Source: a virus. From it: a stretch of DNA of 24,967 nt. Positions within the stretch are counted from its first letter, which is position 1, and the number at the start of each line of letters is the position of its first letter. Positions 3,495-24,324 of this stretch are shown here, in pieces. Below the pieces are notes generated by a model. The model searched no databases and was not told the origin of the DNA. It was given only the letters and a program-made list of their open reading frames with translations. The stretch lies in IMG/VR virus record IMGVR_UViG_3300020433_000045, positions 1-24,967 of that record. One strand, 5' to 3'. The translations under genes and the position numbers were made by a program.

Positions 3495-4100
3495 TTAACC
3501 AGAGAAGAATTTTTTCGCTTTATCTAAAACATTCATTATTTGACTAGTTACTCCACCAGCAAATAACGATTCAGCACCAGATGATATTTGTATTGGAGCT
3601 GCCTCTGAATATAAACTTAAATCTGATCCTCCATTGATGTGCATTTCTTCTGCTGCGATTAAGTTTGTATTATCCCCATCAAGAGTGATATTACCAGCAT
3701 CTACATTCAGACGTTTTCCACCTTCAATAAAAACTCCATCTTCATCAGAGGCTCCTTCTGATATTATCTGAACTCTCTTGCCTTTGAGAATTAGAGTATC
3801 GTCTGATTCAATTTTTATATAACCATTTTCAGATTGAATATGTATTGATGCATCATCATCAGTTGCTTTTTGACCAGAATAAATTTCTACAGATTTATTT
3901 GACCTAATTTTCATATTACCTTGTTTATAAAAATGAATACCTTGATAAGTGTCTGTAGTCATACAATACTCTGTAGGTCCATGTGCCTCACTTTCTACAC
4001 CAGAAGATATTTCAAAATGCGGATATGATCTTCGGTAATATTCTGTAAGTTGTTTCGCAGTTTCATCTGCGACTAACTTTTTAATTTCCTCTTCACTCAT
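3495..4100 (-). CDS. Putative baseplate central spike, beta-helix type (201 aa)
   Basis: After a short helical N-terminus (residues 1-25), residues about 50-165 are a run of short beta-strands broken by Gly/Asp/Asn turns (GNMKIRSNKSVEIYSG, GYIKIESDDTLILKGKRVQI, GGKRLNVDAGNITLDG). This resembles the C-terminal beta-helix needle of T4 gp5 and of VgrG proteins. In T4 that needle is part of gp5 itself; here gp5 ends in a Ser/Gly tract and this separate gene starts in a TAATG overlap with its stop, behind a strong GGAGG site. The likely role is the membrane-piercing tip at the bottom of the tail tube, or a partner of it. The assignment rests on strand pattern and position, not on a residue-level match. 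Confidence 0.6.
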   Translation of the reverse strand: MSEEEIKKLVADETAKQLTEYYRRSYPHFEISSGVESEAHGPTEYCMTTDTYQGIHFYKQGNMKIRSNKSVEIYSGQKATDDDASIHIQSENGYIKIESDDTLILKGKRVQIISEGASDEDGVFIEGGKRLNVDAGNITLDGDNTNLIAAEEMHINGGSDLSLYSEAAPIQISSGAESLFAGGVTSQIMNVLDKAKKFFSG

Positions 4101-6979
4101 TAGTAACCTCCTCCATAGTATCCACCACCATATCCACCTGATCCTGATGAACCACTACTACCTGATGAACCAGATGAACCTGATGAACCAGATGATCCAG
4201 AAGAACCTGATGAACCAGATGATCCAGAAGAACCTGAAGAACCAGATGATCCTGATGATCCTGATGATCCAGAAGAACCTGATGATTCAGAAGATTCTGA
4301 AGATTCCGATGACTCTGAAGATTCAGAAGAACCTGAAGAACTACTACTGCTAGAACTAGAACTAGAAGAAGAACTTGAGGAACTAGAAGAACTTGAAGAA
4401 CTTGAGGAAGAACTACTACTGTCACTAGAAGTGGAAGTAGAACTAGAACTAGTCTCTTCAGACTCATCACTAGTTTGATCAGTATTAATGTTATTGGTGC
4501 TAGTTGTGTTTATATTTATTTGGTCATAAGAAGTTGCAGATGGTTCATCTGCTTCTGATGGTGCTCTCACTACTACTCCCCCAGTGGGTGATAATTTAGT
4601 TCCAGTAGATGTTCTATCAGTAGGACAGTCAATAACACTTGGTATTCCAATTAAAGGTTTCGGAGTTGCATCTACAATGTACTGTAAATTATATGACATG
4701 ATTGGAATAAACTCTGCACCAACTCCAGTTGTTGTGTTAATGGAGTAATCTGGAATGCTTGTAAACTGTTGATTATACCCATCTGGAATAATTACCTCAA
4801 CTATACCACCGCCTGGTGTAATAACTATTGGGAAATTAGTATTTCCAATTCCAATTGTGTCTCCAGATGTGTATCCAATACCAGGTTGATCTACATAAAG
4901 ATCAGTTATAATACCAACTATGTCAGTTCCAATTCCTGCATTTGGAGGAGCAATAGCAATTGGTGGTACAATAGGATCTGTTGGATCTATAGGAGCTGGA
5001 GTTGGGGGAGCAAATGTTTCACCACAATACCCAAAACCAGATTCTCTAATAATTATTCTTTTAACCTCACCATCTTTAACTATTGCTTCAGCTTGTGCAC
5101 CTGTTCCATGTCCTGTATTGTCAATAATTGAAACAGCATTTTGATTAGTATATCCACTACCACCATTTAATACTTCAATAGAGAATATTTTAGTATTATT
5201 TCCAACAACTGCTTTTAATATTGCACCTGATCCCTTTCCAGTTATTGAAACTTTAGGTGGAATACATTTAGGATAAACCACTCCTGGTCTAGAAGGGAAT
5301 ATATCATCTTGATCATTTGGATTATCATTGACTTGATTGCAAGCATTAAATATTGAATTTTTTCCACCAAATAAAGTAATAGTTGAAACTGCTGCTTCAA
5401 TTGATCCTAGACCTTTATCTAATTGACCTGCTGAATCACCTCCCGTGAGAACATCAACACTTGTTAATATATCTCGAAGTGGAGTTCCATTATATGAATA
5501 CTCTGGAACTTCTCCCGTATCACCAAAGACATCATCTATTTTACCACTAATACCTGAAGATATTCCAGTTAGAGATGAACTAATACCAGAGAATACATCT
5601 ACATTGCTTATAATTTTTTCCCATTGATCTCCCTTTGTTTCTACTGCTGCATTTACACTTGAAACCCATTCACTTTCTTTTGAACATTTTTGCTCATCGC
5701 ATCCAATAAAAGAGTATATTGATTTTGCTAAACTACTAACATTTTTCAAAACTCCACTTACAGATCCCAATCCACCCATTAACCAATTTAATCCACCCAT
5801 TATACCACCCAAACCATTCTCAAGAAAATTAAATACCTTTGCAAAGATACCTGATACAAATTGTTCAGCTGCACATAAAGGACCATTTACAATTCTTCCA
5901 ATCAAATTCTGGAACATATTTCCAATAAAATTACCAATATTACCAATCATTTTTTCAAACACACAGAAAATCAAAGATATAATACCTTTGAATCCTTTAT
6001 GTAAAATACCATCCTGTAGGAATGAAGTTATACCTGTAGGAAGAGTTTTAAAAGTTCCTAAAAAAGTTCCAAACAGTTTATTTAATTTCCCAATTAATTT
6101 TTTTCTTATCTGTTTTGTGACTCCTTGAATTATTCCACTTACTTTCTCTCTAATTTTTCTTATCTGATAGTCCATATCAACAATTTGATTTGTTAATGGA
6201 TCTATAAATTTATCGCCAATACTTTCAAGTGTAGATGTAAATGATATAAAATCTTTAAGAATTGAGGTTATTCGACCTATTGCACCACTACCACAAGTGC
6301 TATCTTTAGTAATAGTTTTTGTTGTTAATCTTTCTGTAATTGTTTGTGCGTCTGATGATGCGTTTTGGCTAGCACGAATTGAACTATTAAATTCTGCTGT
6401 ATGTTTTCCAGTATTCCTATTCCTATTCCTATTCCTATTTCTTTCATAATCTTTTTCAATTTTTTGTTTAAGTTTTCCTGAAGTAGTGGTTCTAGCTGTA
6501 GCTGGTGTTTTGTTAGCCCAAGGATCAAAGTTTTTAAATTGAGAACTTTTATATGACTCGACTTCTTGCTTTGTTGTGCTATTACTTTTTACACTCTGTG
6601 ATCTGTGAAGTAAACCCATTATCACTGGTTGTTGTGCTTCTTCTCCATCCAAGAAAAAACCAATAGCAGTTTCACCACCAACTAAAGACATTGTTTCTCC
6701 TCTTCCACCAGTACCATCTCCCATCATTGGATCTTGCATTACGTGTGCCCAAGGAAGATCTTTCTCTTCCAACTGGGCACCGTCCCAAGGATGATATCCA
6801 ATGATACGTACTTTTACTCTTTGACCAAATTCACCATTTGCATCGGAAATCTCATTTTCTTTTTTCCAATAATCAGGATGAGCAACTCGACCAATCCACC
6901 AAGTGAATCCGTCTCGTCCAAGAACATTCGATTTTAATAAAGACTCATCAATCATCGTATACTCTGCATTCAAATGCAT
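4100..6979 (-). CDS. 5: gp5-like baseplate hub subunit without lysozyme domain (959 aa)
   Basis: Residues about 24-130 match the N-terminal OB-fold of T4 gp5: FTWWIGRV, then GQRVKVRIIGYHPWD, DLPWAHVMQDPMMGDGTGG, and a GLLHRS ending. T4 gp5 (575 aa) then has a lysozyme and a beta-helix needle. Neither is seen here. Instead there is a linker with an NRNRNR repeat (about 176-184), a long amphipathic, hydrophobic helical stretch (about 240-440, e.g. GIISLIFCVFEKMIGNIGNF), Gly-rich beta repeats of the GSGYT/GTGA type (about 560-760), and a Ser/Gly tract to the end. A second start (MIDESLL, ATG at 6955) is equally plausible because it overlaps the previous stop by less. It should form the hub with gp27 below the tail tube. 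Confidence 0.8.
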   Translation of the reverse strand: MHLNAEYTMIDESLLKSNVLGRDGFTWWIGRVAHPDYWKKENEISDANGEFGQRVKVRIIGYHPWDGAQLEEKDLPWAHVMQDPMMGDGTGGRGETMSLVGGETAIGFFLDGEEAQQPVIMGLLHRSQSVKSNSTTKQEVESYKSSQFKNFDPWANKTPATARTTTSGKLKQKIEKDYERNRNRNRNRNTGKHTAEFNSSIRASQNASSDAQTITERLTTKTITKDSTCGSGAIGRITSILKDFISFTSTLESIGDKFIDPLTNQIVDMDYQIRKIREKVSGIIQGVTKQIRKKLIGKLNKLFGTFLGTFKTLPTGITSFLQDGILHKGFKGIISLIFCVFEKMIGNIGNFIGNMFQNLIGRIVNGPLCAAEQFVSGIFAKVFNFLENGLGGIMGGLNWLMGGLGSVSGVLKNVSSLAKSIYSFIGCDEQKCSKESEWVSSVNAAVETKGDQWEKIISNVDVFSGISSSLTGISSGISGKIDDVFGDTGEVPEYSYNGTPLRDILTSVDVLTGGDSAGQLDKGLGSIEAAVSTITLFGGKNSIFNACNQVNDNPNDQDDIFPSRPGVVYPKCIPPKVSITGKGSGAILKAVVGNNTKIFSIEVLNGGSGYTNQNAVSIIDNTGHGTGAQAEAIVKDGEVKRIIIRESGFGYCGETFAPPTPAPIDPTDPIVPPIAIAPPNAGIGTDIVGIITDLYVDQPGIGYTSGDTIGIGNTNFPIVITPGGGIVEVIIPDGYNQQFTSIPDYSINTTTGVGAEFIPIMSYNLQYIVDATPKPLIGIPSVIDCPTDRTSTGTKLSPTGGVVVRAPSEADEPSATSYDQININTTSTNNINTDQTSDESEETSSSSTSTSSDSSSSSSSSSSSSSSSSSSSSSSSSSSSSSGSSESSESSESSESSESSGSSGSSGSSGSSGSSGSSGSSGSSGSSGSSGSSGSSGSSGSSGSSGSGGYGGGYYGGGY
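4103..4455 (-). repeat. Ser-rich then SSG/SSE triplet repeat at the gp5 C-terminus
   Basis: About 117 codons are low complexity: a near-pure serine run, then SSE units, then at least a dozen SSG units, ending in a Gly/Tyr tail (GGYGGGYYGGGY). In DNA the SSX part is a degenerate 9-nt tandem repeat. Serine codons mix TCN and AGT/AGC, so the protein sequence is kept while the DNA varies, which argues for selection on the peptide. The tract also creates long shadow ORFs on both strands. Confidence 0.9.
6413..6439 (-). repeat. Hexanucleotide microsatellite in gp5
   Basis: ATTCCT on the plus strand is repeated four times exactly plus a partial unit. On the coding strand it encodes alternating Asn-Arg in the linker after the gp5 OB domain. 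A 6-nt unit keeps frame if copy number changes. Confidence 0.85.
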
Positions 6980-9735: not shown

Positions 9736-11169
9736 TTATCCATCAACAATATTCATAAGACTTTTTGCAGTTTGATCAGAGATAGTATCAAAGTTTTTGG
9801 AGGGAAAGAATACAATAGAAGGTGATCCTCCTCCAGTTGGAAGTGGATTCGAAGATCCTCCCATGACTTGTGGTTCATTATTAGAACCAGACATTGCTGT
9901 TGGAACATATTCAATTATAGGGTCATCACTTTCTTCCTCAATTGGTTTTTCAATGTTTTCAACTATCTTCGTATTTTTACTAGTATCAGCTTTTACATTC
10001 TCAATATCACCCTCTTTAATACCTTCAACTTTACTATCAGAAACTTCTTTAACTTCTTTTGATTCTTTACCACCCTCTACTTTACTTTGAGAAGATACAC
10101 TTTGATTAGCATCTGATTTAATTTCTTCTCTTGTTTCCTTTCTGAGTTTTCTAGTCTCTGCCTGATACAATCTCAATTCTTTTTCTTTTGCAACTCTTTC
10201 TTTACTTGCAAAAGGTAAAGACTTTATTTCTTCTATTAATTTCTTCTCTCCAGTTTTCCTATCAGCAACTACCTGCTTCTCTGCAGCATCCATATCTTTA
10301 TCCATGGTCTTTTTTGTTTCATTGAGTTTTGATCTTTCTGCTTCTACTTCTTGAAATATTTTTTCTTGTTCTTCAGTTCTACCATGCTTACTATGCCTTA
10401 TCTCTTGCTGAGTTCTATCATTACTGAGACCTTTAGTATTCATTCCAGCATCTTTTAATCTCTGATCTAATTCACTGTGTTTTTTACTAAATTCATCTCC
10501 ACCAGTAATCATATCTCTAATAAAACCAGCTGGATTGTATATCCATTCGGGAACAATTTGTTTAATCAAACCACCAATCAACTTGCTCATAGCATTCCAT
10601 AAGAAACCAACTATTGGTTTAGCATATTTTTCTAAAAATCCAAAAATAGCACCTCTAATCTTTTCATTAGAAAGTAAAGCAATAACACCTCCAGCAGCAA
10701 TCAATCCCAAGACACTCAAGACAAAAGGATTAGTAAGAAGTGATGCAACACTTAAAAGTCCACTTAACATACCAAGACCACCACCTAAAAGACCACCCAA
10801 CAAACCACCTTTCTTCTTACCACCTTTCATTTTTAAACTGTCAGTTATATTTCGAATCTGAATCTTTAATAACTTGGTAGTCTCAAACATATCTACCAAT
10901 GCATTTCTTGTTATCTTTAAATTATTTCGCAATATCTTTGCTGTTTTCTTTGCACCAAAAAAATCTAGATAGTTTTTTACAAACTGGGAACTATCATTCT
11001 CTCTTCTTTCTTTTGCAAGTTGTTTTGTTGGTGGTAGTAATTTTTGAGCAACCTTAATCGGAGTTCCCATCAAAGTAGATCCAAGTTTCTTACCACTAGA
11101 TAACAAACTCTTTGCACCTATTTTGGTTTTATTAAAAAAATTACTTGGTTGCTTTAAAAAGGATTGCAT
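9736..11169 (-). CDS. Putative tape-measure or hub structural protein (477 aa)
   Basis: Residues 1-110 are basic and helical. Residues about 112-170 are a hydrophobic Gly/Leu-rich block (KKKGGLLGGLLGGGLGMLSG then LLTNPFVLSVLGLIAAGGVI) that could span a membrane. Residues about 230-400 are a long, highly charged helical region likely to be a coiled coil (EEQEKIFQEVEAERSKLNE, AEKQVVADRKTGEKKLIEEI). The C-terminal tail is disordered. A hydrophobic block plus a long coiled coil, directly after a gp26/chaperone pair, is what a tape measure gene looks like in many phages. T4 gp29 is 590 aa. The role is inferred from layout, not from a recognised match. Confidence 0.6.
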   Translation of the reverse strand: MQSFLKQPSNFFNKTKIGAKSLLSSGKKLGSTLMGTPIKVAQKLLPPTKQLAKERRENDSSQFVKNYLDFFGAKKTAKILRNNLKITRNALVDMFETTKLLKIQIRNITDSLKMKGGKKKGGLLGGLLGGGLGMLSGLLSVASLLTNPFVLSVLGLIAAGGVIALLSNEKIRGAIFGFLEKYAKPIVGFLWNAMSKLIGGLIKQIVPEWIYNPAGFIRDMITGGDEFSKKHSELDQRLKDAGMNTKGLSNDRTQQEIRHSKHGRTEEQEKIFQEVEAERSKLNETKKTMDKDMDAAEKQVVADRKTGEKKLIEEIKSLPFASKERVAKEKELRLYQAETRKLRKETREEIKSDANQSVSSQSKVEGGKESKEVKEVSDSKVEGIKEGDIENVKADTSKNTKIVENIEKPIEEESDDPIIEYVPTAMSGSNNEPQVMGGSSNPLPTGGGSPSIVFFPSKNFDTISDQTAKSLMNIVDG

Positions 11170-11174
11170 TTGAC

Positions 11175-11348
11175 TTATGAATTTTCTTGTATCCTTGCAT
11201 TTTCTTCTTCAATATATTGATTGAGTAACGCAAGATAGATATCTCTTTCCCAAGGCATCATATTTTCAATTTCAGTTAGTGAGTATTTATGATGTTGCAT
11301 TAAAGAAAAATTAATTTTGAAGTATGACTCAAGATCAATATGAGACAT
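11175..11348 (-). CDS. Tail chaperone-like 57-aa ORF, probable frameshift extension of gp26
   Basis: The ORF starts MSHIDLESYF, with ATG 2 nt after the gp26 stop, and contains LTEIENMMPWERDIYLALL, a motif pattern I associate with the T half of G/GT-type tail assembly chaperones. It has no Shine-Dalgarno at a proper distance from its ATG. It is in the -1 frame relative to gp26 and that frame is open across the gp26 stop, so ribosomes slipping at 11357-11363 would make a gp26 fusion of about 299 aa. Such chaperones hold the tape measure during tail assembly, and the next gene is a tape-measure candidate. In T4, gp51 (hub assembly factor) occupies a comparable functional place; equivalence is not shown. 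Confidence 0.75.
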   Translation of the reverse strand: MSHIDLESYFKINFSLMQHHKYSLTEIENMMPWERDIYLALLNQYIEEENARIQENS

Positions 11349-11378
11349 ACTCAACCGAAAAAAGACGCTAATCCCTCC
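11321..11378 (-). promoter_or_regulatory. Predicted -1 programmed ribosomal frameshift signal at the gp26 3' end
   Basis: On the coding strand, in order: an SD-like GGAGGG at 11378-11373; nine bases; the heptamer T TTT TTC (11363-11357) in the gp26 frame as X XXY YYZ; one Gly codon and the gp26 stop TGA; and a hairpin from 11351 to 11321. The hairpin pairs AGTATG with CATACT and, after one T-T mismatch, CTCA with TGAG around a 9-nt loop. The spacer from heptamer to hairpin is 5 nt. The SD, slippery site, hairpin order matches E. coli dnaX. The -1 frame leads into the 57-aa ORF. Confidence 0.75.
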
Positions 11379-12073
11379 AATACAATTTCACTTTCAACTT
11401 TAGTGTTAGGATTCGTAACTTTTAAAGTATGAGAAAGTTTCGGCATTGTTTCAAAGAAAGTTTCAAGTTCTTTAAATTGTTTTGAATTTAAATCTTGAAG
11501 CCACTCTTTAAGTTCCTTTTTCGTACAATCAGACGCTGCCCATGACTCTTCATCATTGTAGACCATATCAATACATGAAGCAATGATGTCAAAAGATTGG
11601 TCTAATTGATCCACTTCTCCAGAAATTTCAAAATTGTTTGCAATAAACTCATTCATAGAAGGATACTTCATCCTTAATGTTAAGTTTGGATTTAGAACAA
11701 TATCTTTTTTATGTTGATTATTTGTTTGAATTCCAATCTCATCAATATAAACTTTCACAGGAACAGTTGTTTCATTATCATCAGGACAGGTAACAATTAA
11801 ATCAAGTGCCTCTCCAACAGACTTACCTCGAATATTTAAAAATAGATATTCAATATCGAAAGTTGGAAGTTCTTCAATTTTAACTCCTCTGGTACTAATA
11901 CAATCTTTTAGAATTTTTTTCACTGCATTAGTAATACTTTTATTATCTCCACCTTCTAAAGCAAGAATAAGAACTTTCTCTTCTCTTACTAAAAATGGAC
12001 GATATTTAATCTTCTTACCATTTGAAGGTAACTGCAACTCATAAAGTGGAGTTGATATTTTTGGTAAAGGCAT
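11351..12073 (-). CDS. 26: gp26-like baseplate hub / tail assembly protein (240 aa)
   Basis: The N-terminus has the gp26 family signature: PKISTPLYELQLPS, then IKYRPFLVREEKVLILALEG and a later KKILKDCI. T4 gp26 is 208 aa, so the length is similar. The middle contains LPTFDIEYLFLNIRGKSVGE and TCPDDNETTVPVKVYID, which also fit. The C-terminus, LEGLASFFG, lies on a slippery run of T, and the Phe-Phe codons are the predicted frameshift site. In T4 gp26 is a hub protein; in a G/GT-like arrangement it would be the abundant short chaperone form. The gene follows the tube-fold protein with a 35-nt gap containing a CTAAATA element. Confidence 0.85.
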   Translation of the reverse strand: MPLPKISTPLYELQLPSNGKKIKYRPFLVREEKVLILALEGGDNKSITNAVKKILKDCISTRGVKIEELPTFDIEYLFLNIRGKSVGEALDLIVTCPDDNETTVPVKVYIDEIGIQTNNQHKKDIVLNPNLTLRMKYPSMNEFIANNFEISGEVDQLDQSFDIIASCIDMVYNDEESWAASDCTKKELKEWLQDLNSKQFKELETFFETMPKLSHTLKVTNPNTKVESEIVLEGLASFFG

Positions 12074-18037: not shown

Positions 18038-18209
18038 TATCTAATTCTTCAATTGAGTCAACAGGAACTTCTGCTTCTCCTATACGATACCAATGCTGAT
18101 CTATACCAACACTATCAGGTCTTACCCCAAGATACTCAAGGTCAGACCAATTATGTTCACGCAGCATTGCTTGTAAACGGTAGTGTATTAATTCGGATTT
18201 AGATGGCAT
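18012..18209 (-). CDS. Small conserved cyanophage protein (65 aa)
   Basis: The protein begins MPSKSELIHYRLQAMLREHN and ends in an acidic tail (EELDNVEPVDPD). It looks like an N-terminal helix followed by a short beta region (WYRIGEAEVPVDSI). The start overlaps the stop of the gp33-like gene (TAATG) and the end overlaps gp59, so it is read as part of the replication operon. I do not recognise a function. Confidence 0.7.
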   Translation of the reverse strand: MPSKSELIHYRLQAMLREHNWSDLEYLGVRPDSVGIDQHWYRIGEAEVPVDSIEELDNVEPVDPD

Positions 18210-18469
18210 TATAAAGGTAGTCTTGCTCTTGATGTTTTTTTCATAAAGTTAAGTTGTTGTGCATCATACTTTAACTTTTCTTTTAATGGTTTTGACATTA
18301 ACTTGGATACTGCTTCAAGTTCAATTTTATTCTCATCACAAAAAGTGATGATAGCATCAATGTAATTGAATTTATTATCCTTTGCTATTTTTTCTACTTC
18401 TTGTGCAAACTGTGCTTGACACAAGAATTTTTCCTTCATCAAATCATCTACTTTTTTCTTAGTCTCCAT
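18209..18469 (-). CDS. 33: gp33-like late transcription accessory protein (86 aa)
   Basis: I take METKKKVDDLMKEKFLCQ as the start because AGGAGAG lies just upstream; a longer in-frame form (to 18568) would overlap the nuclease gene by 110 nt. The protein is helical, with DAIITFCDENKIELEAVSKL then MSKPLKEKLKYDAQQLNFMKKTSR, a pattern I know from cyanophage proteins annotated as gp33. T4 gp33 (112 aa) links RNA polymerase to the sliding clamp at late promoters. The place next to gp59 and gp32 also fits T4 order. The protein sequence is too diverged from T4 for certainty by eye. Confidence 0.7.
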   Translation of the reverse strand: METKKKVDDLMKEKFLCQAQFAQEVEKIAKDNKFNYIDAIITFCDENKIELEAVSKLMSKPLKEKLKYDAQQLNFMKKTSRARLPL

Positions 18470-19139
18470 ACTCTCCTGTTTTGTATTCGACAAATTTTTT
18501 AATGTATTTGGTAAGAAGTTTAATATACTCACCTTTGTTTCGTTTTTCATAGACAACGCATTCTCCATTTTCAGATACCATGATTGTGATAAGTTTTTTA
18601 ACTGGTATACCAGTCATTTCATAATACATGCAAGCATACGCAGTCTCTTGCACGAAATAATTTTCAATCCATTCTTCAGGTTTAATTTTGTTTGATGTCT
18701 TAAAATCTATTACTGCGAGTTCCCCATCATACTCTGCTATGCAGTCAACTCTACCTGCCAAACCAAGATAATCACTATACAGGGATTTCTCTAAAGCGTG
18801 TATGTTATTTATACGATTGAGATTTTTTTGAGAAGATAAGAATAGAAACTTGGTTGAAGGAAGAATATCAAGTTTGTTGATATCTTCATTATTCAAATAG
18901 TGTTCTACAACATCATGAAATTTAGTGCCTCTAAAAGTAGATTCTCTGGTGATTTTATTTGCCTTTTCATCCCCAACTTTTTTTCTCCATTTGATAAAAA
19001 CATCACGATTATAAAAACTTGTAACTGAAGTAATGGATGGATACATTTTTCCAGTTGGAGTTTTATAGTAACGAGTTCCTTCAATAGTAGAAACTGATAA
19101 ATCAGGTTCTTCTTTTAAATAATCTAAATGTTTAAACAT
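18459..19139 (-). CDS. RecB/Cas4-like PD-(D/E)xK exonuclease (226 aa)
   Basis: Catalytic motifs are visible in order: a His in GTKFHDVVEHYL (residues 71-82), D132 in LAGRVDCIAEYDG, the D145-x-K147 pair in LAVIDFKTSNK, and QETAYACMYYE (164-174). These are the hallmarks of RecB-type nucleases. It is likely to act in phage recombination or DNA degradation. It lies between phoH and gp33-like, its start overlapping the phoH stop (TAATG). The single-domain length fits a stand-alone PD-(D/E)xK nuclease. Substrate (ssDNA or dsDNA, 5' or 3') cannot be told from sequence. Confidence 0.85.
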   Translation of the reverse strand: MFKHLDYLKEEPDLSVSTIEGTRYYKTPTGKMYPSITSVTSFYNRDVFIKWRKKVGDEKANKITRESTFRGTKFHDVVEHYLNNEDINKLDILPSTKFLFLSSQKNLNRINNIHALEKSLYSDYLGLAGRVDCIAEYDGELAVIDFKTSNKIKPEEWIENYFVQETAYACMYYEMTGIPVKKLITIMVSENGECVVYEKRNKGEYIKLLTKYIKKFVEYKTGEYGD

Positions 19140-19903
19140 TACATACCTAGAGCAATTTTAGTAAGGAGATAGTTTCGGACAAGTCCAGAACGAACGATAT
19201 CATCAATGCCAAATTCAATTGATTCAAAATCTTCAGTCATTGATAGAATGATTTGTTTAAAATCTAATATACCATTCTTTTCATTAGTTTTAACAAGATC
19301 AGTTTGTGCAGCATCACCACAGAAAATAATCTTACAATTTTCACCAACTCTTGTTATTATACTATCTAATTCATGAAAATTCAAGTTTTGCATTTCATCT
19401 ATTAACAAAATAGAATTATCCATTGTTGTTCCACGAATAAAAGATGTAGACCAAAACCCAATAGTTTCTTGAGTTTTAAGTGCACCATACAACATTTCAA
19501 AGTCTTGATCGGATGGCATTTCAAACATATACTTTACCATATTCTTATATGGAATTTGATATAAGAATGACTTGTCTTCATGATCACCTGGTAAAAATCC
19601 AATCTCTCGTGTAGATACAAGAGAACGAACTACATATACTTTTTCATATGGAGTTATTGGATTTAAAACATCTCTCAAAGCAAGATATAATGCTACAAAT
19701 GTCTTACCTGTACCTGCTGCACCATAAGCAAAAACATTTTTACCTTTATCATATGCTTCAAAGAATTTTTCTTGATTCTTTGTCAATGGTTTAATTTCAA
19801 CCATTGATTCTGAGTTAATTGGTTTTTTTCTTTTTAATTGTTTATTACTCATACTACCAATCCCAGAAGAGTTTCCGTTTCCGTTTCTTTTTTTAGCTGG
19901 CAT
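19139..19903 (-). CDS. phoH: PhoH-like P-loop ATPase (254 aa)
   Basis: After a basic, disordered N-terminus (1-35), the ATPase core shows the Q-motif region (KPLTKNQEKFFEAY), Walker A GAAGTGKT (61-68), Walker B ILLIDEMQN (165-173) and sensor FCGDAAQTD (194-202), all typical of PhoH. The gene is widespread in marine phages and in cyanophages in particular. In E. coli phoH is phosphate regulated, but the phage role is not settled; an RNA helicase or nuclease-helper activity has been proposed for the family. It sits in the replication operon between an FmdB-like gene and a RecB-like nuclease. Confidence 0.95.
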   Translation of the reverse strand: MPAKKRNGNGNSSGIGSMSNKQLKRKKPINSESMVEIKPLTKNQEKFFEAYDKGKNVFAYGAAGTGKTFVALYLALRDVLNPITPYEKVYVVRSLVSTREIGFLPGDHEDKSFLYQIPYKNMVKYMFEMPSDQDFEMLYGALKTQETIGFWSTSFIRGTTMDNSILLIDEMQNLNFHELDSIITRVGENCKIIFCGDAAQTDLVKTNEKNGILDFKQIILSMTEDFESIEFGIDDIVRSGLVRNYLLTKIALGM

Positions 19904-23673: not shown

Positions 23674-23680
23674 TATTTAT
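23674..23680 (-). promoter_or_regulatory. Candidate late promoter core ATAAATA before glutaredoxin
   Basis: ATAAATA at 23680-23674 matches seven bases of the T4 late element and lies 18 nt before the glutaredoxin start. In an AT-rich genome this may be chance. Confidence 0.3.
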
Positions 23681-24324
23681 TGTTTTGATATAGCGTTTGC
23701 ATAATCTTTATCGAAGATCTCAATACCTACGTCTGTCAAAATGTGTCCATACATTTTTTCAAAAATAGACGGAGGCATTGTCACTATATCTGCACCTTGT
23801 GCAAAGGAGTGTTCTACATCACCCACAGAGCGAATTGATGCAGATAATATTTCGCACATATCATATGGTAATACTTCTCTTATACGTTTAATCAGATTGC
23901 ATCCACCAAATCTTTGATCATCAACACGACCAACAAAAGGAGAAATGTATTTTGCACCTGCTTTTGCAGATAAAATAGCTTGAGATACACTAAAAATTAG
24001 TGTAACATTTACTTTGATACCATCTTTTGACAACTGTTTACATACCCATAATCCATCAGGTGTACAGGGAACTTTAATTGTGGTTTGATCTTTTCCAAAT
24101 TTTTTAATCAATCTTGCACCCTCTAATGCCATTTCTGCAGCACTACCCACAACCTCCATACTTATATCTGGAATACCTGCACGAATTAATTCTTGGTAAA
24201 CTTCTTCTGGATCACGACCACTCTTCATAATTAATGTCGGGTTAGTAGTAATGCCATCAATCAATCCAGTTTTGAAGTGTTCTTTGATTGATTTAGTATC
24301 TGCGGTATCAAGAAAAATCTTCAT
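23677..24324 (-). CDS. talC: Transaldolase, TalC type (215 aa)
   Basis: The sequence follows the small TalC/fructose-6-phosphate aldolase-like family: MKIFLDTADTKSIKEHF, DGITTNPTLI (23-32), TIKVPCT with the Schiff-base Lys at K84, NVTLIFS, ISPFVGRVDD and the C-terminal ADIVTMPPSIFEKM. TalC is a hallmark auxiliary gene of cyanophages. It supports the pentose phosphate pathway, giving NADPH and ribose for phage nucleotide synthesis while the Calvin cycle is held back. It has a strong promoter just upstream and is read with glutaredoxin and the small-gene run. Confidence 0.95.
   Translation of the reverse strand: MKIFLDTADTKSIKEHFKTGLIDGITTNPTLIMKSGRDPEEVYQELIRAGIPDISMEVVGSAAEMALEGARLIKKFGKDQTTIKVPCTPDGLWVCKQLSKDGIKVNVTLIFSVSQAILSAKAGAKYISPFVGRVDDQRFGGCNLIKRIREVLPYDMCEILSASIRSVGDVEHSFAQGADIVTMPPSIFEKMYGHILTDVGIEIFDKDYANAISKQ

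Follow-up and report, generated by a model that had tools for sequence, protein, structure and literature searches.

The end of gene 26 in this T4-like virus carries what we read, with a probability of about 0.92, as a −1 ribosomal frameshift site through which one gene would yield two tail assembly chaperones, a short form (gp26, TAC-N) and a long form (the gp26-gp51 fusion, TAC-NC), in the manner of lambda G/GT. The site is significant because it is conserved: an in-phase TTTTTTC, TTTTTTT or TTTTTTG stands shortly before the gp26 stop, with gp51 in the −1 frame, in 203 of 203 distinct loci that keep this layout.

Locus and elements of the putative frameshift site

The window, by which we mean the whole stretch of 24,967 bases analysed here from an IMG/VR virus record, arranges its genes in the T4-like order usual for cyanophages: gp26, head closure, DNA end protector, tail tube cap, wedge subunit, ssDNA-binding protein, PhoH and transaldolase. 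The virus is related to ocean cyanobacterial phages, an affiliation which the genes for transaldolase and PhoH (23677–24324 and 19139–19903, minus strand), auxiliary genes typical of cyanophages, also back. Elsewhere in the window, the ORF of a late-promoter regulator (gp33-like, 18209–18568) overlaps that of an exonuclease (gp46/47-like, 18459–19139) by about 110 nt on the minus strand; the family match of the former is confined to residues 43–118, and its real start probably lies further downstream. A 959-aa homologue of the baseplate hub/tail lysozyme (4100–6979, minus strand) bears near its C-terminus a collagen-like repeat (residues 901–949, E 3.8e-5, slightly short of the Pfam cut-off). 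The features of the locus are as follows.

11351–12073, minus strand: gene 26 (putative TAC-N), zero-frame product of 240 aa with the C-terminus ...EGLASFFG*
11373–11378, minus strand: SD-like GGAGGG, within codons TTG GAG GGA, 9 nt 5' of the heptamer
11372–11364, minus strand: 9-nt spacer between GGAGGG and the heptamer
11357–11363, minus strand: T TTT TTC, the slippery heptamer, in phase with gp26 (TCT TTT TTC)
11353–11351, minus strand: gp26 stop TGA, with a single Gly codon (GGT) between heptamer and stop
11321–11351, minus strand: 3' hairpin, putative stimulator, 6 bp + T.T mismatch + 4 bp, 9-nt loop
11175–11356, minus strand: −1 frame extension (putative TAC-C domain, 'gp51'), 60 codons RLSMSHIDLESYF...ENS + stop
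11175–11348, minus strand: 57-aa ATG-started ORF inside the extension, possible minor independent product
9736–11169, minus strand: next gene, 477 aa, tape-measure candidate by position and composition

A sequence-only reading had described this arrangement, from the SD-like GGAGGG through the 9-nt spacer, heptamer, Gly codon and stop to a hairpin starting 5 nt past the heptamer, and every part of it was recovered at the same positions on the minus strand. The −1 frame, claimed to be open through the small ORF, is open around the site for 70 codons, to the stop at 11177–11175, and the fusion would comprise 239 + 60 = 299 aa.

Conservation of the slippery heptamer

The motif proposed as a signal is indeed present, but taken alone in this window it is close to chance. 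The 6735 codons of the window contain 8 in-frame TTTTTTN sites versus 8.2 expected from codon shuffles, 0.116 such sites are expected in the final two codons of the 25 genes taken together, and motif statistics within the AT-rich window alone are not significant. A heptamer by itself is weak evidence in an AT-rich genome, and the weight therefore rests on comparison with relatives.

In the first 45 viral contigs, whose proteins were 67–99% identical, all carried TTTTTTC one codon 5' of the stop with the −1 frame open. Profile searches and named phages enlarged the set to 208 distinct junctions, from which the 203 comparable loci were obtained by setting aside the T4-group phages, which have a separate gene 51, and a small Ackermannviridae-like set, in which three vibriophages lack the heptamer and Acinetobacter phage nACB2 has TTTTTTT. 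The comparable loci cover cyanophages, pelagiphages and KVP40-, Aeromonas-, Stenotrophomonas- and Rhizobium-type phages, and include phages of Pelagibacter, Nitratidesulfovibrio, Stenotrophomonas, Aeromonas, Rhizobium and Cronobacter as well as Vibrio phage D484; the heptamer was also found in five named phages read separately, namely KVP40, PX29, Astolliot, Xanthomonas X1 and Stenotrophomonas DLP6. Conservation in relatives had been proposed as the check on the frameshift claim, and heptamer, frame and −1 extension are kept down to about 25–30% protein identity. The heptamer lies 0–1 codons from the stop in 192 of the 203 loci, two codons in one and eight in ten, the last being contigs in which the zero-frame stop has moved eight codons further on while heptamer and −1 frame are still kept.

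One might suppose that the gp26 C-terminus simply needs its Phe-Phe pair as a protein and that gp51 lies in the −1 frame by chance, and the pair is indeed kept even in T4-type gp26 (KEFFELL), which lacks the heptamer. We regard this coincidence as scarcely credible, as synonymous choice is free (TTT 1623 versus TTC 573 elsewhere in gp26) and TTTTTTC/T/G following a T is still universal. The codon 5' of the Phe pair ends in T in all loci although its residue varies between S, D, A and N, and other Phe-Phe pairs within gp26 read TTT-TTC in 6 of 201 cases, mostly at one homologous position and hence non-independent. Furthermore, the T4-group phages, in which gene 51 is separate and full-length, have the Phe pair and no heptamer.

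A second explanation would place the slip in transcription, with RNA polymerase stuttering on the T run and producing mRNAs in both frames. The site is after all a run of T, reaching 7–8 in 13 loci, but exactly six T are found in the other 190, and transcriptional slippage usually needs runs longer than six. Phase, SD-like element and downstream structure moreover typify ribosomal slippage, and we hold the transcriptional route to be very improbable.

The −1 extension and the start of gp51

The −1 extension is open in all 203 loci over 56–69 codons and is homologous across distant groups by hmmsearch. Free gp51 would be obtained more simply if ribosomes terminated at the TGA and restarted at the ATG two bases on, releasing the 57-aa product that public annotations imply. 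This ATG, the fourth codon of the extension (codon 3, counting from 0), occurs at the same place in 125 of the 203 loci, and three vibriophages without the heptamer, K361, YC and K452 (L088, L097 and L098), show a TAATG stop-start overlap instead. Against such reinitiation, 44 of 99 representatives carry no ATG, GTG or TTG within the opening 12 codons of the extension, so that in these the start of the conserved domain is reachable only via gp26; Aeromonas phage G2 likewise lacks a start codon near the point where its extension begins. In the window, the ATG falls within the hairpin's 5' arm and, as the sequence-only reading had noted in calling the Shine-Dalgarno of this ORF poorly placed, none occurs 5–9 nt 5' of it. 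Reinitiation also leaves unexplained both the universal heptamer and the match of T4 gp51 to the fusion. We thus consider it unlikely as the principal route; it may contribute a minor product beside the frameshift, and some free gp51 may be made from its own ATG in the window.

Putative stimulatory elements

GGAGGG or GAGGG occurs in 132 of the 203 loci, at a conserved Glu-Gly nine bases upstream of the heptamer. The element partly overlaps this Glu-Gly, and it is missing in 21 loci. Its conservation, which had been put forward as a further check, is borne out at the codon level: where Glu is present at this position, GAG is used in 131 of 166 loci versus 29% elsewhere in gp26.

The proposed hairpin is present 3' of the heptamer and shows covariation. 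Its arms in the window, AGTATG-T-CTCA and TGAG-T-CATACT, enclose a 9-nt loop (MFE −12.7 kcal/mol, z −3.6), and one extra G.U pair is possible (11352/11320). Among the 99 representatives, the 45 bases 3' of the heptamer have a mean z of −1.54 (standard error 0.16) against dinucleotide shuffles, whereas these loci give means between about −0.6 and +0.1 when folded at other offsets; z lies below −1.5 in 51% of representatives directly 3' of the heptamer versus 6–24% at the other offsets. Within the clade of the window, a single stem position is seen as T-A, G-C and A-T, and stem covariation exceeds the shuffled and most of the slid controls, a control that is not independent of relatedness.

RNAalifold found no consensus structure in the mixed set, since part of the clade carries a different hairpin. 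Six loci and their relatives (L112, L122, L126, L128, L139 and L161) have a different short hairpin about 10–24 nt past the heptamer, in the forms GGTCC-ATAT-GGACC, GATCC-ATAT-GGATC and GGTTC-ATAT-GAACC, whose changes match on both sides by eye; a pair-count test of this GGTCC-ATAT-GGACC type, made on the mixed set, came out near chance. Several deep clades have no strong fold 3' of the heptamer, and Rfam returned sub-threshold chance matches only. These data support a structured element 3' of the heptamer whose exact form varies.

Protein families and the equivalence to T4 gp51

gp26 belongs to Pfam PF12322, T4_baseplate (E 2.8e-73; 246.7 bits versus a curated cut-off of 24.5), and matches phrog_150, baseplate hub, at E 1.9e-78, while the extension matches phrog_634, the gp51 family, at E 6.4e-31 and the C-terminus of phrog_150 at E 9e-9. 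T4-type gp51 (250 aa) aligns with phrog_150 over positions 13–281 of 282 (E 4e-88). A profile built from nothing but fused products aligns T4 gp51 gap-free through the junction with 45.3 bits, to be compared with 25.5 bits for its gp26 part and 22.3 for its extension, and T4 gp26 matches the first part only. The −1 ORF of the window holds just the C part of gp51, not a full-length T4-type gp51, and its N part would come from gp26 via the proposed frameshift. So the two forms which T4 encodes as genes 26 and 51 would here be made from one gene, as judged from these alignments. The earlier likening to lambda G/GT was right in design, and the fused gp26-gp51 product finds a match in T4 gp51.

For T4, gp26 and gp51 have been catalogued as chaperones of hub assembly, with gp51 not in the particle (PMC3004832), and this absence fits the chaperone reading. 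Compared with PDB structures, the model of gp26 ranks the HK97 tail assembly chaperone 2ob9 first, a match that is not significant (E 0.62, probability 0.28–0.63), and searching PDB sequences with the profile of gp26 yielded no meaningful hit.

The next gene had been named a tape-measure candidate, a claim which comes out weaker than it was stated: the assignment is plausible, but a firm match to a tape-measure family is absent. Its 477-aa product has a Gly-rich hydrophobic segment and a long charged helical region, and its best PHROG match is to phrog_12706, tape measure, at a weak E of 0.15. In Pelagibacter phage HTVC008M, clear tape-measure matches lie just downstream.

A model for the two chaperone forms

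According to the frameshift reading, most ribosomes would terminate at the TGA (11353–11351) and release the 240-aa short form, putatively TAC-N. A minority would pause, held by the hairpin and by GGAGGG as it pairs with 16S rRNA, and would slip by −1 on T TTT TTC, both tRNAs-Phe re-pairing to TTT TTT. These ribosomes would then read past the stop and produce the 299-aa long form, TAC-NC, bearing the gp51 domain. On the model of lambda gpG/gpGT (reviewed in PMC5009743), the short form may coat the tape-measure protein and the long form may recruit the tail-tube subunits through its C-terminal domain, and the rate of slipping would set the ratio of the two forms.

Annotation and evolution

A comparison of T4-like genomes from 2010 noted that cyanophage gp51 has about 20% of the usual length and lacks the first ~200 residues, and listed gp51 as 'missing' in Aeh1 (PMC3037559). 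The frameshift explains the short cyanophage protein, as the missing part is gp26; it probably explains the 'missing' gp51 of Aeh1 as well, judging from Aeromonas phage G2. Most public records that we read, from cyanophages and other T4-like phages, present gp51 as a small gene of its own, in many cases begun at an internal Met, or omit it. For instance, in S-RIM8, S-CAM3, Syn10 and ACG-2014e (L093, L095, L099 and L100) it is annotated from an internal Met or omitted, and the start of the conserved domain is lost. The frameshift reading thus supplies an annotation rule for gp51, and the long-unexplained 'catalytic' gp51 of T4 becomes testable as the long chaperone form.

In the three heptamer-less vibriophages, gp26 homologues are followed by a gp51-like −1 ORF that begins at the TAATG, with homology clear only in YC (E 7e-7), which suggests that stop-start coupling has replaced frameshifting there. 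As for the distant alignments, one (A3) was too divergent for a scan of the collection, and another (A4) returned only Vibrio phage YC again. As a tentative scenario, to which we give rather less than even odds, the T4-like superfamily would originally have used the frameshift and would have given it up on two or more occasions: the T4 group in favour of a separate, full-length gene 51, and some Vibrio phages, having lost the heptamer, in favour of TAATG coupling. In the cyanophage line the site would have been improved by an SD-like element and by a covarying hairpin, which would set the chaperone ratio.

Comparison with known systems

The locus resembles lambda gpG/gpGT in its proposed pairing of a short tail assembly chaperone with a long −1 frameshifted one upstream of a tape-measure gene, here a candidate. 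In lambda the slippery sequence is GGGAAAG and the T part lacks a start codon of its own; the present site instead has T TTT TTC, and its extension contains an ATG, the likeness being one of design rather than of demonstrated sequence homology. Escherichia coli dnaX uses three stimulatory parts, an SD-like element about 10 nt upstream, the heptamer and a 3' hairpin. All three are also found at the gp26 site, with spacings of 9 and 5 nt and with statistical support, their function here being putative. The heptamer of dnaX is A AAA AAG and its frameshift product is shortened, whereas that of gp26 would be extended.

T4 itself offers a likeness in its products, since its gp26 corresponds to the short form and its gp51 aligns at full length with the fusion, and a difference in its genes, which are two, divergently oriented, and without the heptamer. 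The closest precedent lies within the T4-like phages. Poly-T frameshift signals in their TAC-N genes are credited by PMC12846349 to Vladimirov, Gautam and Davidson 2022 (Virology 566:9-15), and the two-gene solution of some of them is credited to the same work by PMC10885494. As far as these citing accounts convey, the gp26/gp51 chaperones of that study are of the same families (PF12322/phrog_150 and phrog_634), with the same TAC-N/TAC-NC design. The frameshift of these chaperones being already published for T4-like phages, the locus is therefore not a new kind but a well-supported new example, to which three things may be additions: the conservation of the SD-like element, the variation of the hairpin, and the vibriophages that have lost the heptamer.
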